A DNA stretch of 64,000 nucleotides from Deferrisoma camini S3R1 (GTDB lineage: Bacteria > Desulfobacterota > Deferrisomatia > Deferrisomatales > Deferrisomataceae), in NCBI RefSeq assembly GCF_000526155.1, contig NZ_JAFN01000001.1:1182501-1246500 (forward strand), in the 5' to 3' direction. The notes under the pieces are model-generated. The model saw only the letters and a program-made list of their open reading frames with translations. It did no database searches and was not told the DNA's origin. Numbering within the stretch: the first letter of the stretch is position 1; every line of letters starts with the position of its first letter. Both the position numbers and the translations under genes were made by a program. This document shows positions 5,057 to 13,529 of the stretch, piece after piece.

Positions 5057-5608
5057 TCACGCCCCCGCCCGGCCGGCGCCGGCCTCCAGGGCCTTCTGGT
5101 TCAAGGGAATCAAGCGGTGCACCTTCTCCGGCAGGACCTCGGGCAGCACCTCGGCCACCGCCTCCACCGGGAGCACCCCGCTCGCGGCCACGTAGGCGCC
5201 CAGGGCCACCATGCTGGCGAGCCGCGGGTCTCCCAGCTCTGCGGCCACGTCGTTGCACGGCACCCGAACCACCCGCACGTCCTCCCGCTCCAGCACGCCG
5301 TCGGGCACGATGGAGGCGTTCACCACCACCACGCCGCCGGCCCGCACCCGGGGCCCGAACTTGACCAGGGACGGCTCGTTCATCGCCACCAAGCCCAGCG
5401 GCCGGGCCGTGACCGGGCTGCCGATCTCCCGGTCGGAGACGGTCACCGTGCAGTTGGCCGTGCCCCCCCGCATCTCCACCCCGTATGCCGGGAAGAAGGT
5501 GACCCGGTAGCCCTGCCGCAGGGCGCCCACGGCCAGAAGGTTGCCGATCATCAGGATTCCCTGCCCCCCGAACCCTGCCATGACGATATCGTGATGCATC
5601 GTTTTCAC
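5057..5608 (-). CDS. 2-oxoacid:ferredoxin oxidoreductase gamma subunit
   Basis: A 183-residue gamma subunit of the pyruvate/2-oxoacid:ferredoxin oxidoreductase superfamily. The N-terminus DIVMAGFGGQGILMIGNLLA is the hallmark of this domain, followed by FFPAYGVEMRGGTANCTV, which contacts the other chains in this family. It completes a four-gene set (delta, alpha, beta, gamma). Such enzymes decarboxylate 2-oxoacids to acyl-CoA with reduction of ferredoxin. Several ATGs lie at the N-terminus; 5608 is the longest plausible. Confidence 0.9.
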   Translation of the reverse strand: MKTMHHDIVMAGFGGQGILMIGNLLAVGALRQGYRVTFFPAYGVEMRGGTANCTVTVSDREIGSPVTARPLGLVAMNEPSLVKFGPRVRAGGVVVVNASIVPDGVLEREDVRVVRVPCNDVAAELGDPRLASMVALGAYVAASGVLPVEAVAEVLPEVLPEKVHRLIPLNQKALEAGAGRAGA

Positions 5609-5663
5609 TCGTTCTGTGGCCCGCAGCGCGGGAGGACTCCCGCCGGGCGGGGTCCGAACCGGG

Positions 5664-6412
<749 letters not shown>

Positions 6413-6416
<4 letters not shown>

Positions 6417-7489
6417 GCCGCCTCCTCCCCGGCGGGCAGGCGCCGCACGATCTCGTCGTAGATGTCGTCGGGGCTCGGCAGGTACCCCGGCGGGTACCCG
6501 GCGAAGTGCACCGGCGCCCGGCCCTCCACGGCCAGGCGCACGTCCTCCACCATCTGGCCGGTGTTCAGCTCGACCGTGAGCAGCGGCACCCCCTGCTCGG
6601 CCACCCGCCGGATCGCCTCGTCCGGGAACGGCCACAGGGTGATGGGCCGCACGTACCCCACCCGCCGGCCCTCGTCGTTCAGGCGGTCCACCGCGCTTTT
6701 GGCGATGCGGGCGGCGGACCCGAACGCCACCACGGCCAGCTCGCACCCCTCGGGCAGCTCGGTCTGGACCCGGGTCTCCTCCCGACGGATCCGCTCGTAC
6801 TTCTGGGCCAGCTTCCAGTTGTGCTCGGCCAGCTCGCCATCGCCCAGGTACAGCGACTTGATCCGCCGGCCCGGCCGCCCCGCGGCGCCGGTGGCGGCCC
6901 AGTCGTCCTTGGACGGCTCCGGGCTCTGGGGCACCCACTCCTCCAGCGGCTCCTTCATCATGCCGATCATGGCGTCCGCCAGCACCATCACCGGTGTGCG
7001 GTAGGTGTCGGCCAGGTCGAAGGCGAGCACGGTGAGGTCGTACATCTCCTGCACCGACGCCGGGGCCAGGACGATCACCCGGTAGTCCCCGTGCCCCCCC
7101 CCGCGGGTGGCCTGGAAGTAGTCGCCCTGGCTCGGGGCGATGCCGCCCAGGCCCGGGCCGGAGCGCTGCACGTTCACGATCACCCCGGGTACCTCGCTGC
7201 CGGCCATGTAGCTGATGCCCTCCTGCTTCAGGCTGATGCCGGGGCTGGAGGAGCTGGTCATGGCCCGCTTGCCGGTGGCGCCGGCGCCCAGCAGCATGTT
7301 GATGGAGGCCACCTCGCTCTCGGCCTGCACGAACTGGCCGCCGACCCGCGGCAGCACCCCGCTCAGGTACTCGGGGATGTCGCTCTGGGGGGTGATGGGG
7401 TACCCGAAGTAGTACCGGCACCCGGCCGCCACCGCCGCCTTGGCCAGGGCCACGTTCCCCTTTTCGAAGGTCACCTTGCTGTCGCTCAT
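6413..7489 (-). CDS. 2-oxoacid:ferredoxin oxidoreductase alpha subunit (KorA/VorB type)
   Basis: A 358-residue alpha subunit. The N-terminal block [20 protein letters not shown], then [20 protein letters not shown] and the run [19 protein letters not shown], are strongly typical of subunits annotated KorA or VorB. The C-terminal part ([19 protein letters not shown]) is the transketolase C-terminal-like domain. ATG 7489 overlaps the stop of the delta subunit (ATGA), which rejects the longer in-frame start. The sequence resembles the branched-chain (VOR) set at least as much as 2-oxoglutarate enzymes, so no gene symbol is assigned. Confidence 0.93.
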
Positions 7490-7689
7490 TTCCAGACCTC
7501 GATCACCACCTCGGGGCACATCCGGGCGCAGATCGCGCACCCGGTGCACGCCTCGGGGTCCCGGAGCCCCACCGGCCGATATCCCAAAGGATTCAGGCGG
7601 TCGGTGATCTCCAGGCAGTCCTTGGGGCAGAACTCCACACAGATGCTGCAACCCTTGCAGCGGTCGTCCCGGATCACCAGTTTCGGCAT
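7486..7689 (-). CDS. 2-oxoacid:ferredoxin oxidoreductase delta (2x[4Fe-4S]) subunit
   Basis: A 67-residue ferredoxin-like subunit with two cluster motifs, [12 protein letters not shown] and [12 protein letters not shown]. It is the first gene of the operon, 4 bp overlap with alpha. A TTGACA box lies about 53 bp upstream on the minus strand. Confidence 0.93.
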
Positions 7690-8363: not shown

Positions 8364-9167
8364 CTACCCCTCCCGTCCGCTTTCGGGATCCACCTTGAGC
8401 GCCCCCAACCGAACCGCGCACACCCGGCCGAGGTCCACGGGGCTGTGAACCGCCCGGCGTTCCCCCCACCGGGCCACCACCCCCAGGCCGAGGCAGAACC
8501 CATCCCCGTCCAGCAGCCCCACCAGCCGCCCCCGTGCGACGGCCCCCATGCCGTACACCGGCGTCTCCCGGGGCAGGAGCACCTCCCGCCCCCCGGCCAG
8601 ATGTTCCCGAAACCGCTGGGCACGGGCGGCGGCTCGCTCTTCGAAGCTGCGGCGCCGCACCCCCGAACCCGGGGGGATCCGAACCACCTCGAACCGGGGG
8701 TCCCCCTCCATGGGCCCCAGGATCGGCTCCAGCTCGCCGTCCACCTCCAGCCCCACCACCGCGCAAGGGGCCAGGGCCTCGGCCTTCCAGATCTTGAGCG
8801 CCACGCCCCCTTCGGAAGGCGCCACGAGCCCCGTGGTGTCCACCACCACCCGGCCGCACCCCTCCTCCCGGGCCCGGGCCGCCAGCCGCAGCACCCCGAC
8901 CACGCAGGGCAGCATGTGGGCCCGCGGGGAGGTGCTCCCCACAAACCACCGGGCCACCACCTGGGGGTCCCGGCCCGGCCGGCAGACGGCCACGGACTGG
9001 ACCGCAGGGGGCCCGAGCACCCCCTGGCCCACGTCCGCGTCCACCCACCCCACGGTCTCTCCCCGGGACGTCCAGCGCTCGATCAGGGTCCGGACCCAGG
9101 TGGTCTTCCCCCGGTCGGTCCGGCCCACCACCAGGACGGTGGAGGCGTCCACGGCCCTTTCCGTCAT
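8364..9167 (-). CDS. Clp1/Grc3-type polynucleotide 5'-hydroxyl kinase-like P-loop protein
   Basis: The 267-residue protein starts with a Walker A motif GRTDRGKTTW (residues 15-24) and then WVDADVGQGVLGPPA, which matches the P-loop domain of the Clp1/Grc3/NOL9 polynucleotide kinase family, where the DxDxGQ segment is diagnostic. A later VVVDTTGLV is a Walker B-like strand. Such enzymes phosphorylate RNA 5'-OH ends with ATP; bacterial members are poorly studied. ATG 9167 is followed at once upstream by an R1 repeat. It lies downstream of iorB on the same strand, separated by 300 bp of repeat, so it may be its own transcript. Confidence 0.75.
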   Translation of the reverse strand: MTERAVDASTVLVVGRTDRGKTTWVRTLIERWTSRGETVGWVDADVGQGVLGPPAVQSVAVCRPGRDPQVVARWFVGSTSPRAHMLPCVVGVLRLAARAREEGCGRVVVDTTGLVAPSEGGVALKIWKAEALAPCAVVGLEVDGELEPILGPMEGDPRFEVVRIPPGSGVRRRSFEERAAARAQRFREHLAGGREVLLPRETPVYGMGAVARGRLVGLLDGDGFCLGLGVVARWGERRAVHSPVDLGRVCAVRLGALKVDPESGREG

Positions 9168-9170
9168 GGC

Positions 9171-9236
9171 AACTTCGGTCGTCGGTCGTCGGTCTGGGGC
9201 CTTCGGCCCGCTGGGCGGCTAGGCGGCCAGGCGGCT
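9171..9236 (+). repeat. R1 dispersed intergenic repeat, copy 2
   Basis: AACTTCGGTCGTCGGTCGTC is followed by the GGGGCCTTCGGCCC hairpin, CGCTGG and the tail GCGGCTAGGCGGCCAGGCGG. It abuts the start codon of the kinase gene and is followed directly by an R2 copy. Confidence 0.8.
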
Positions 9237-9469: not shown

Positions 9470-10102
9470 TCAGCAAAAGGGCTTTCCGGCGAGCTCCCGG
9501 CCCAGGGCGAAGGCCTCTCGGTTGGCGTCGAACCCGGGCAGCCGCTCCCGAACGGTCTCGAGCAGGGCCTCGTCCGGCACCGGCAGTTGGCCCAGGGCCG
9601 AGGCGAGCCCCAACGCGATCACGTTCACCTGCCGAAGCGACCCGAACCGCTCCCGGGACGCGGCCTCCATCCCCACCAGGCACACCCGGGGGGTCACCTC
9701 GGCGATCCAGTCGCGGATCCGCTCCACCGGTGGGTACTCGGCGCTCCCCAGCCGCACCGCCGTGGGCGTGCGGGGCGCGACCTCGCTGATGACCACCGTG
9801 TCCGGGTTCATGAGCGCCAGGCTCCGGGCCGCTTCCAGGGGCTCCAGGGCGATCACCATGTGGGCCCCGCCCCGGGGGATCAGGCCCGAGAACGCCTGCC
9901 TGCGGGGGTTCTCCGCCTCCTCCGGCTCCAGGGTCCGGTAGCGCACGTGGGAGGTGACCCGCCCCTCCCGCTGGGCCCCGCCCCGGCGCTCGGCGCCCGT
10001 GACCTCCACCCCGGCCCGGATCGCGGCCAGCTTGAGCAGGGTGCCCAGGGTGATCACCCCCTGGCCCCCGATGCCGGCGATCAGGATGTCGTAGCGCCTC
10101 AT
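9470..10102 (-). CDS. iorB: Indolepyruvate:ferredoxin oxidoreductase beta subunit
   Basis: A 210-residue gamma-type domain protein: DILIAGIGGQGVITLGTLLK at the N-terminus, TGAERRGGAQREGRVTSHVR next, and a C-terminal FGSLRQVNVIALGLASALGQ. This is the standard IorB pattern. IorAB oxidises aryl 2-oxoacids (indolepyruvate, phenylpyruvate) to aryl-acetyl-CoA and reduces ferredoxin. ATG 10102 overlaps the iorA stop by 4 bp. Confidence 0.92.
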   Translation of the reverse strand: MRRYDILIAGIGGQGVITLGTLLKLAAIRAGVEVTGAERRGGAQREGRVTSHVRYRTLEPEEAENPRRQAFSGLIPRGGAHMVIALEPLEAARSLALMNPDTVVISEVAPRTPTAVRLGSAEYPPVERIRDWIAEVTPRVCLVGMEAASRERFGSLRQVNVIALGLASALGQLPVPDEALLETVRERLPGFDANREAFALGRELAGKPFC

Positions 10103-12000
10103 GCCGCCCTCCCCCGTCGCACCCGGGTCCGGGTGATGGCCGAGTTGGGACAGATTTCCTCGCACACCCCGCACCGCTGGCACAGCCCCGGGTCGATCAC
10201 ATACACCGGCCCTTCGGCCCCCTCGTCCTCGCGGATCGCGGGGCAGGCCAGCTCCCGGTAGCATCGGTGACACCGTTGGCACCGTTCGGGGTCCAGGTCC
10301 ACCCACTCCTCCTGGAGCGGCGGAGCGGCCTTCCCGCGCCGCTCGGACTGCAGGGCGCACTCGCCCTCCACCACGATCACCCGCACGCCCGAGCCGGCCA
10401 GGGCCTCCCGGAGCAGCACCTCCAGGGGGCGCACGCGGAAGGCGTCGGCCCGGCGGACCCACTCCACCCCCAGGCTCCGGACGAACCCCACCAGGTCCAC
10501 CGCCTTGCGGGGCGTCCCGTCCACCAGCCGGTCGGTGGTGGGGCTCGGCTGGTGGCCGGTCATGGCCACCCACCGGTTGTCCAGGATCAGCAGCACCAGG
10601 TCGGCGCCGTTCTGGATCGCGTTGAGCAGGGTGGGCACGCCGGAGTGGAAGAACGTGGAGTCCCCCACCAGGGCCACCACCGGCTCGTCCGAGACCTGGG
10701 CAATGGCCTGGCCGCTGCCGGCGCCGCAGTTCATGCAGGTCACCCAGTCCGACACCCGAAACGGGGGCAGCACCGACAGGGTGTAGCAGCCGATGTCCCC
10801 GGCGAACACGGTGTCGGGCCCGGCCGCCCGGCGCAGGGCGAAGTTGGTGGCCCGGTGGGGGCATCCCGGGCAGAACGCCCCCTGCCGGGGGGGCATCTCG
10901 GCCCGGTGCCGCGCCAGGGCCTCGGCGCCCCGGCGCCGGCCGTGGGGCAGCCGGCCGCCCAGGGCCTCGGCCAGGGCGTCGGTCACCCGGTCCACGTCCA
11001 CCTCGCCGGTGGCTGGGAACAGCTCCTTGCCCACGATGGGGGTGCGCACCCCGGCGTCGTAGGCCCAGCGCTTGGCCTGGAACTCCAGGAACCCCTCCAG
11101 CTCCTCCACGAAAACGGCCCGGTCCAACCCCTCGAGGAACCGGATCACCAGCCGGGGGTCCAGGGGGTAGCTCATGCCCACCTTGAGCACCGGCACGTCG
11201 TCCAGGCCCAGGATCTCCAGGGCCTCCATCGTGTAGGCGAACAGCAGGCCCGAGCACACGATCCCCACCCGCCTCCGGCCCGGGATCACCCGGTTCAGGC
11301 CCAGCCGGCCGGCGTCGGCCCGAAGCCGCTCCACATTGGCCAGGCACCGGCCGTGGTTCTGCACCGCGAAGTCGAACAGGTTCAGGTACCGCTCGGGGTT
11401 TCGCTCGAACCGGCCCCGGTACGTCACCCGCTCCGGCAGCGGGCCCAGCCGCAGGGTGCCGATGTTGTGGCACAGCTTGGAGGGGGCGTTCACCACGAAC
11501 GGCAGGTCGTAGGTCTCCGACAGTTCGAAGGCCTGCCGGGTCATCTCCTTGGCCTCCTGGATGTCGGCCGGCTCCAGCACGGGCAGGTGGGTGTGCAGGC
11601 TGTACCACCGATCGTCCTGCTCGCCGGTGGAGCTGGTGGCCCCCGGATCCGACCCCAGCACCACCACCATGCCGGCCCGGACCCCGGTGTACCCGGCGAA
11701 GTGGAACGGCTCGGCCGCCACGTTCATGCCCACGTGCTTCATGGCCACCATGGAGCGCACCCCGGCCCAAGAGGCGCCCAGGGCGCCCAGGGCGGCCACG
11801 TGCTCGTTGGTGCTGATCTCGGCGTACAGGCCGGGGAACTCCTCGCGCAGGCCCTGGAGCACCGTGCCCACCTCGCTGGCCGGGGTGCCCGGGTAGGTGG
11901 AGAAGTAGCCCAGGCCCGCCTCGATGCCCCCCCGGGCCAGGGCCTCGTTGCCCATGGCCAGCACGGCCCGGCCGCTCTCGGCAGACGCCAGGGGGTTCAC
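10099..12000 (-). CDS. iorA: Indolepyruvate:ferredoxin oxidoreductase alpha subunit
   Basis: A 633-residue fused alpha-beta-delta chain. The N-terminal half has YFSTYPGTPASEVGTVL and SMVAMKHVGMNVAAEPF. The TPP part has FCPGCPHRATNFAL, TVFAGDIGCYTLSVLPPF and VALVGDSTFFHSG. The C-terminus has two ferredoxin motifs, CQRCHRCYRELACP and CQRCGVCEEICP. The start chosen is GTG 12000, which overlaps the upstream stop by 4 bp (GTGA); the next ATG is at about 11955. Length is normal for IorA. Confidence 0.93.
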   Translation of the reverse strand: MNPLASAESGRAVLAMGNEALARGGIEAGLGYFSTYPGTPASEVGTVLQGLREEFPGLYAEISTNEHVAALGALGASWAGVRSMVAMKHVGMNVAAEPFHFAGYTGVRAGMVVVLGSDPGATSSTGEQDDRWYSLHTHLPVLEPADIQEAKEMTRQAFELSETYDLPFVVNAPSKLCHNIGTLRLGPLPERVTYRGRFERNPERYLNLFDFAVQNHGRCLANVERLRADAGRLGLNRVIPGRRRVGIVCSGLLFAYTMEALEILGLDDVPVLKVGMSYPLDPRLVIRFLEGLDRAVFVEELEGFLEFQAKRWAYDAGVRTPIVGKELFPATGEVDVDRVTDALAEALGGRLPHGRRRGAEALARHRAEMPPRQGAFCPGCPHRATNFALRRAAGPDTVFAGDIGCYTLSVLPPFRVSDWVTCMNCGAGSGQAIAQVSDEPVVALVGDSTFFHSGVPTLLNAIQNGADLVLLILDNRWVAMTGHQPSPTTDRLVDGTPRKAVDLVGFVRSLGVEWVRRADAFRVRPLEVLLREALAGSGVRVIVVEGECALQSERRGKAAPPLQEEWVDLDPERCQRCHRCYRELACPAIREDEGAEGPVYVIDPGLCQRCGVCEEICPNSAITRTRVRRGRAA

Positions 12001-12551
12001 GGCGACGCCTCCAGGGGCACCAGGTCCCCGCCGGGCCCCCGGCGCACCAGGGTGAGGCCCGGGATCGGCTCGGGCGGCTCGGCCCCCGCGGGCACGATCC
12101 ACCGGCTGACCCCGGCCCCGGCCAGGGTCGCGGCCCGGGCCCGCTCGGCCGGGGTGGTGAGCCGACCCGATGCCCAGAGCTCCAGCCCGACCCCGGCCTC
12201 CCGGAGCACCCCGGCCAGCACGGCGGGGTCCAGCTCGTACACCGCCGCCGCCTCCCCCGGCCCCGGGGATCCGGTCAGGAGCCACAGCCCCCGGCACCCC
12301 AGGGCCTCGGCGCCCCTGGCCTCGGCCACCAGGGCCGTGCGGTTGCGGTCCCGGCACACCAGGGGCACCACCACGGGTCGGTCCGGGGTCTCCGACCGCA
12401 CCCGGGCCGCCAGGGCGAGGGCATGCACCCCCTCCGCCGGATCCCCAAGCACCACCCCGACCCCCGGGGCCAGCTCCCGGAGTCCGGCGCACACCCGGTC
12501 CACTCCCTCGGGCCCGACCCGACCCACCAACACCCAGGATGCCGCGCTCAT
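11997..12551 (-). CDS. Short MetF-like protein (degenerate methylene-THF reductase fold)
   Basis: The protein has 184 residues, against about 290 for MetF. The block VVVPLVCRDRNRTALVAEAR followed by GCRGLWLLTGSPGPGE corresponds to the central strands of MetF proteins. Where MetF enzymes have the catalytic Glu of the N-terminal E-F-x-P-P motif this one reads VGRVGPEG, and the conserved Asp of the LxGD segment is Ser (LTGSP). The C-terminal third of the barrel is missing. It overlaps metV by ATGA and iorA by GTGA, so all are translated together. It may be a structural partner of MetV or a decayed enzyme; catalysis as a MetF is doubtful. Confidence 0.6.
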   Translation of the reverse strand: MSAASWVLVGRVGPEGVDRVCAGLRELAPGVGVVLGDPAEGVHALALAARVRSETPDRPVVVPLVCRDRNRTALVAEARGAEALGCRGLWLLTGSPGPGEAAAVYELDPAVLAGVLREAGVGLELWASGRLTTPAERARAATLAGAGVSRWIVPAGAEPPEPIPGLTLVRRGPGGDLVPLEASP

Positions 12552-13192
12552 CTCGTCCTCCGTCCCGTGGACCGGGGCCGGCGCACCGGGGGGGCGGGCG
12601 GCCGCACCGTCCCGAACGCCTCGGCTCGGCCCAACGCCTCCAGCCGCTCCCAGATCCGCTCCCACACACACTCCAGGCCGGGCTCGGCCTCGCAGGCGCC
12701 CGCGTTGGCCTCTTCACACGGCCCGTTGCGCAGGCCCTTGGGGCAGCCCGTCACCGGGCAGATCCCGGCGGTCTCGTTGAGCACGCACGCTCCGCACAGG
12801 GCGCACTGCTCGTGGAACACCCCCACCCGCTCCACGGTGCCCACGAAGTGGGCGTCGAGCCCGGCCACCACCGGCTTGCCCACCAGCTCGGCCACCGCCT
12901 GCACGCCCCCACCGCAGGTGAGGCACACCACCCCGTCGGCCGCCTCCAGCTCCCGGGCCACCCGCTTCAGGTCCCGGCGGGTGAGCCTGCGGTCGCAGGG
13001 CGACGGCAGGTCGACCCGGGCCAGCACCTCGAATCCCTCGTCCTGCATCCGTTCGGCCAGTTCGTCCACCTGGGACGAGCCGCCCGTCTGGCACACGGCC
13101 GCGCAGTCCGCGCAGCCCATCACCACCCACCGCTTCCCGTCCCCCAGGGCGAACCGGACCTCGTCCCAGGGCTTCGGCGTCGTCACGACCAT
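12548..13192 (-). CDS. metV: MetV-like methylenetetrahydrofolate reductase C-terminal zinc/iron-sulfur protein
   Basis: A 214-residue cysteine-rich protein of the MTHFR_C (MetV) family. Cysteine clusters are CADCAAVC, CLTCGGG and CALCGACVLN, followed by the family signature GICPVTGCPKGLRNGPC. In acetogens MetV pairs with MetF. ATG 13192 is chosen over the ATG at 13213 because an AGGAGG lies 9-10 bp upstream of it, inside the codons that would follow the earlier ATG. First gene of the metV-metF-like-iorA-iorB run. The residues after about 185 are a Pro/Arg-rich tail. Confidence 0.83.
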   Translation of the reverse strand: MVVTTPKPWDEVRFALGDGKRWVVMGCADCAAVCQTGGSSQVDELAERMQDEGFEVLARVDLPSPCDRRLTRRDLKRVARELEAADGVVCLTCGGGVQAVAELVGKPVVAGLDAHFVGTVERVGVFHEQCALCGACVLNETAGICPVTGCPKGLRNGPCEEANAGACEAEPGLECVWERIWERLEALGRAEAFGTVRPPAPPVRRPRSTGRRTR

Positions 13193-13294
13193 CTGGAAAG
13201 AACCTCCTCTCATGGAAGCTAGGAGGCTAGGATGCCAAAGAACCTCTTTCATCTCCTAGCGTTCCGTTCCGCAAAAAAGCATATCCTTTGCGGC

Positions 13295-13443
13295 GGTGGG
13301 GCTGGGGGCTCCGACGAAGCGCGACGGCCGAGCCGCCCGGCGCGAGCGGTGCGGCCGCGGCGCGAGCGCTGACGCGCTGCAGCGGACCGCGCCGGGGCGG
13401 CCCCTGCGAGGCCGTTCAGCGAAGGGGGGGCCCCAGCCCAACC
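13295..13443 (-). repeat. R2-like structured repeat, divergent copy E, in the metV leader
   Basis: Arms GGTGGGGCTGGGGGCTCC (from 13295) and GGGGCCCCAGCCCAACC (ending about 13443) pair with a few mismatches, enclosing a very GC-rich interior of short inverted repeats. The interior differs from copies A-C, but position next to a reversed R1 copy and overall layout are the same. Confidence 0.5.
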
Positions 13444-13479
13444 CCCTCGGGGAATGCGCGAACTTGCGAGCCATGACCC

Positions 13480-13529
13480 CAGCGGGCCGAAAGCCCCCGA
13501 CCGACGACTGACGACCGTGGCCCGAAGTT
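13480..13529 (-). repeat. R1 dispersed intergenic repeat, reversed copy
   Basis: Read on the minus strand: CAACTTCGGGCCACGGTCG, two more GTCG units, GGGGGCTTTCGGCCCGCTGG. It precedes the R2-like copy E in the same order as on the plus strand elsewhere, so the R1-R2 pair has been inverted as a unit. Confidence 0.7.

Follow-up and report, generated by a model that had tools for sequence, protein, structure and literature searches.

A divergent 2-oxoacid oxidoreductase co-encoded with MetV and a putatively non-catalytic MetF relative in Deferrisoma camini

Introduction

The indolepyruvate:ferredoxin oxidoreductase IorAB usually delivers its electrons to diffusible ferredoxin.

MetV, which has been described as an electron transfer module and carries the motif NGPCGG (PMC8515935), pairs with MetF in the MTHFRs of types II to IV (MetVF, MetVF-RnfC2 and MetVF-HdrCBA-MvhD), and the redox modules attached to known MetVF pairs are RnfC2, HdrCBA-MvhD or NuoEFG-like (PMC8760232, PMC8515935). 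Ferredoxin donates electrons to MetVF in vitro, and which partner serves MetVF in the cell has yet to be settled for the bioenergetics of acetogens (PMC8760232). In the E. coli MTHFR MetF, kcat is reduced to roughly 0.01% by the Glu28Gln substitution and to 0.3% by Asp120Asn (PMC11094777). Our literature search found no paper joining MetV with an indolepyruvate ferredoxin oxidoreductase, or presenting IorAB as the partner of MetVF.

Here we describe an operon that resembles the MetVF-type MTHFRs in that metV lies directly upstream of a gene for a MetF relative, the MetV cysteines and the R-D-x-N-R motif of MetF are kept and a redox module is attached. It differs from them in that its MetF is shrunken and devoid of active-site residues, the MetV motif is altered, and a TPP-dependent 2-oxoacid oxidoreductase takes the place of RnfC2 or Hdr as partner.

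Results

The window is the whole stretch of 64,000 nucleotides of the D. camini S3R1 genome that was analysed (contig NZ_JAFN01000001.1, positions 1,182,501 to 1,246,500; positions without a unit are those of the window). The operon runs on its minus strand from 13192 to 9470 and comprises the following features.

12548..13192, minus strand: metV-like gene for a 214-aa Fe-S protein, PF12225 (DUF5981), Pfam E=8.7e-29; ATG start set by conservation
11997..12551, minus strand: pseudo-metF, coding for a 184-aa protein predicted to form a reduced MTHFR-type barrel that lacks the catalytic residues (HHalign, model/Foldseek, dN/dS)
10099..12000, minus strand: iorA-like gene with a GTG start, for a 633-aa 2-oxoacid oxidoreductase large subunit of a divergent subfamily (TIGR03336, altered residues, tree stem)
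9470..10102, minus strand: iorB-like gene for a 210-aa subunit with a POR gamma domain (PF01558, E=1.3e-25; TIGR03334)
12548..12551, minus strand: metV/pseudo-metF overlap of 4 bp (ATGA), -4 in G000, G001, G003 and G007
11997..12000, minus strand: pseudo-metF/iorA overlap of 4 bp (GTGA), -4 in G000, G001, G003 and G007
10099..10102, minus strand: iorA/iorB overlap of 4 bp (ATGA), -4 in G000, G001, G002, G003 and G007

A sequence-only reading of the window had taken these four genes, each overlapping the next by 4 bp, for a single translational unit. All three junctions are indeed exactly 4 bp, and the preservation of the set across two families with every overlap bears out the single unit. For metV, the ATG at 13192 is preceded by GAGGAGG, and both distant orthologues (G003 and G007) share the start residue; the start at 13252 given by the ORF tool finds no support.

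The same genes, in the same order and with the same three overlaps, occur in 4 of the 12 genomes of the order: the host (G000), G001 from the same genus, G003 from the same family and G007 from another family. The complete set occurs in only three genera. The short MetF measures 184 aa in G000 and G001, 207 aa in G003 and 213 aa in G007, and none of these carriers has a full-length MetF at the locus or an altered gene order, the two outcomes that the sequence-only reading had named as refuting it. In G002 a contig end cuts the operon, leaving iorA, iorB and only the 27 C-terminal residues of the short MetF, for which reason this genome is counted among the 8 of 12 without a whole short MetF. 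The surroundings of the operon differ between the families, with trk genes beside it in the first and uvrC in G007. In a sample of 395 genomes of the phylum, the short MetF and the clade of the operon iorA are confined to the same genomes, all five carriers of the iorA clade having the short MetF either whole or, in G002, in part. A phylum-wide profile search revealed no further short MetF, the scores falling from 281 bits to 49 bits, where ordinary MetFs start. A single contig scan reaching beyond the phylum, with one protein as query, found only a near relative, matching G001.

Several other features lie close to the operon. A CLP1-type P-loop (polynucleotide kinase-like) protein is encoded just downstream of iorB (8364-9167, minus strand); its gene accompanies the operon in G001 and G002 and was not found there in G003 or G007. 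About 2 kb from the ior genes, a second 2-oxoacid:ferredoxin oxidoreductase of VorB/A/C-like type (5057-7651, minus strand) adjoins an ORF for an XRE/cupin-like regulator. A repeat of some 150-200 bp, dispersed over intergenic sites throughout the chromosome, occupies 13300-13500 (at least 40 copies scored, the other copies being 82-89% identical; 341 first-look candidates). Since part of this repeat sits inverted on the far side of the operon (arms at 9176-9215 and 13478-13517), its copies bracket the operon.

The MTHFR ancestry of the second gene product emerged from profile comparison. The 184-aa protein has no Pfam match and does not reach PF02219, a Pfam search extended to all four orthologues was uninformative, and PDB sequence searches with the pseudo-MetF, its alignment and MetV as queries returned no meaningful match. 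Against NF006396, a bifunctional model of homocysteine methyltransferase/MTHFR, it gives E=5.7e-5, a score far under the model's own cut-off. However, HHalign of a profile of the four orthologues against a profile of 53 MetFs gave a probability of 98.2% (E=2.9e-14 for a single comparison, over 108 columns), consistent with the earlier call of a MetF-like protein of 184 residues. The four pseudo-MetFs and 38 MetFs (42 aligned sequences) all share D37, R67, D68, N70 and R71, as well as A81, G94, V104 and G147, and the stretch CRDRNR is common to the pseudo-MetF and the MetV-partnered MetF of the host. An AlphaFold2 model of the 184-aa protein (pLDDT 82.6, pTM 0.82) shows a barrel of eight strands in which the last helices are short or missing, and its top PDB match by Foldseek is 1zrq, the E. 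coli MTHFR (TM 0.59-0.62); because MetFs were in the modelling alignment, this fold lends support without being wholly independent. For the 213-aa orthologue of G007 the model is poorer (pLDDT 76, residues 156-186 unreliable). Profile and predicted fold together identify the pseudo-MetF as a true MTHFR relative. The C-terminal third had been described as lacking: the last helices are reduced, but with all eight strands kept this part is compressed rather than lost outright.

Despite this likeness to the E. coli enzyme, the pseudo-MetF has no equivalents of Glu28 and Asp120. The Glu of the MetF motif AELGPP aligns to Arg/Gly in the 184-aa protein, and the position of the catalytic Glu28, which is Glu in 95% of MetFs, reads Arg/Arg/Pro/Arg in the four orthologues. 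The pterin-binding Asp120 is changed to Ser, His or Arg, SGD being replaced by TGS, AGH or SGR. Alignment thus confirmed both substitutions first read from the host sequence, Gly/Arg for the catalytic Glu and Ser for the catalytic Asp. Moreover, the conserved KK pair has become TL/VL/TL/SL, and the TQ motif is absent from all four orthologues. Judged by these residues, the pseudo-MetF is almost certainly inactive as a reductase.

Such losses raise the question of whether an old metVF pair was at some point joined to an ior operon and left the pseudo-MetF as a degenerating relic, in which case only MetV and IorAB would matter. Pseudo-metF does evolve fastest of the four genes (45% protein identity across families, compared to 65-78% for the other three), and in the genus of the host its product is the shortest of all and has lost C-terminal helices. 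Between G000 and G001, omega is 0.26 for pseudo-metF, 0.13 for metV and 0.11 for iorA; the value for iorB, based on few changes, is 0.39. Over long distances, omega for pseudo-metF is 0.5-0.8, in GC-rich sequences near saturation; given this value and the fastest change of the four, the constraint on it is modest. Nevertheless, the gene is intact wherever the operon is complete, in two families, without stops and with all overlaps kept; the within-genus omega and the invariance of R-D-x-N-R and other scaffold residues likewise speak against decay. We regard the relic as improbable.

The operon MetV scores 99.5 bits against PF12225 (cut-off 23) and keeps all 12 cysteines (Fe-S/Zn sites) of the canonical MetV of the host. 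In place of NGPCGG it has NGPCEE in the genus and NGPCEG in G003 and G007. The operon MetVs form a clade with 100/100 support on a stem of 1.41, in a different group from the MetV of the host; by its place in the tree, the operon MetV did not arise by recent duplication of the latter. The regions around those metVF loci whose MetV groups with the operon MetV contained no 2-oxoacid oxidoreductase. The search for a normal metF elsewhere in the genome was successful: a full-length metVF at 1.84 Mb sits inside an HdrA/HdrCB-type cluster (complete HdrCBA-MetVF type). A third MTHFR-type gene, at 0.226 Mb (L039, about 5.9-7.6 kb), codes for a natural 563-aa fusion of MetF with a C-terminal domain of MetV type.

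These data bear on whether the operon could encode a new MTHFR type, in which the pseudo-MetF would sense folate or flavin, or reduce methylene-THF via other residues, with IorAB as donor. The MetV and MetF ancestry and the addition of redox modules to MetVF in known MTHFR types would fit, and an "indolepyruvate oxidoreductase" was among several contaminants of MetVF preparations from S. ovata (PMC9430772). However, the catalytic Glu, the pterin-binding Asp, KK and TQ are gone in all four orthologues, the two E. coli substitutions cited above show how severe single changes at such sites are, and the host already has its complete HdrCBA-MetVF-type cluster. With the pterin- and flavin-site residues gone, a folate function for the four-gene unit is unlikely, and we consider this reading very improbable.

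The oxidoreductase had been assigned as acting on aryl-pyruvates. The operon IorAB shares with indolepyruvate:ferredoxin oxidoreductase the order POR_N, TPP_C and two [4Fe-4S] sites in IorA and the POR domain of IorB, and its IorA keeps E66, YPGTP, TGHQ, the TPP motif GDS and the [4Fe-4S] motifs CxxCxxCxxxxCP and CxxCxxCxxxCP. Unlike that enzyme, it is translationally tied to metV and pseudo-metF, and both subunits fall below the equivalog cut-offs (IorA 567 bits for TIGR03336, indolepyruvate cut-off 651; IorB 119 bits for TIGR03334, cut-off 206). Five positions, at each of which 98-100% of 49 other IorAs agree, have changed in all five members of the operon IorA clade (K67H, D97E, D117S/A, R171N and CMG to CMNCG). 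No stem in the tree is longer than that of this clade (1.5), and plasmid relatives of the operon IorA are all less than 60% identical. Among the four IorA-type genes of the host, one, at 3.67 Mb with iorB beside it, exceeds the TIGR03336 cut-off. The missed cut-off, the altered near-invariant positions and this ordinary iorAB leave the aryl-pyruvate assignment unsupported. On the strength of its sequence, the operon IorA is not an ordinary indolepyruvate oxidoreductase, a point new to the present analysis, and its substrate pocket is probably changed. No metV adjoins the other IorA loci in the twenty regions checked, the sole metV match there being a separate canonical metVF in G003 that lies some 6.6 kb away from an ior gene.

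Three genomes of the order carry another divergent IorA subfamily, on a stem of 1.15 (L117 in G000 at 0.437 Mb, L116 in G003, L121 in G006), which has YYGMVEQD instead of the SSQNEQD motif.

Discussion

We favour, with moderate confidence, the reading that the operon encodes a 2-oxoacid oxidoreductase complex of a new subfamily, in which an MTHFR pseudoenzyme devoid of catalysis serves to dock MetV onto a re-specialised IorAB. The proposal of a new electron-transfer complex with a folate-type module survives in part: the data are best read as a redox complex, but a folate role is unlikely. Co-translation of the four genes suggests a physical complex, and the long stems of MetV and IorA are as expected if both diverged together.

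A looser arrangement, in which MetV and the pseudo-MetF form a small soluble carrier pair that shuttles electrons from IorAB like a dedicated ferredoxin, with no stable four-part complex, would agree with the usual use of diffusible ferredoxin by IorAB, with the matched amounts that co-translation yields and with the uptake of electrons from ferredoxin by MetVF in vitro (PMC8760232). The strict 4-bp coupling of four genes and the matching long stems favour direct contact instead, making the carrier pair rather unlikely.

In the four-part complex that we favour, the products of the four genes would form a single soluble assembly with MetV as its dedicated electron-transfer subunit, held by the pseudo-MetF. 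As its family and TPP motifs suggest, the TPP of IorA would attack a 2-oxo acid, and CoA and IorB would finish the oxidative decarboxylation or the reverse carboxylation. Electrons would flow to the two C-terminal [4Fe-4S] clusters of IorA, for which the motifs are present, and from there perhaps to the [4Fe-4S] clusters of MetV, whose cysteines are present. The pseudo-MetF, an MTHFR scaffold that retains R-D-x-N-R but lacks the active site, would dock MetV to IorAB; we infer that R-D-x-N-R contacts MetV. More speculatively, MetV could exchange electrons, in either direction, with ferredoxin, flavodoxin or the Hdr-MetVF complex of the host.

If this model is correct, the electron-transfer module MetV can be recruited outside folate chemistry, and an MTHFR that has lost catalysis but kept its MetV-type motif would set docking by MetF apart from the chemistry of the enzyme. 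The operon would then offer a compact system in which to trace electron transfer by MetV, and would add a subfamily with an altered active site to the 2-oxoacid oxidoreductases.
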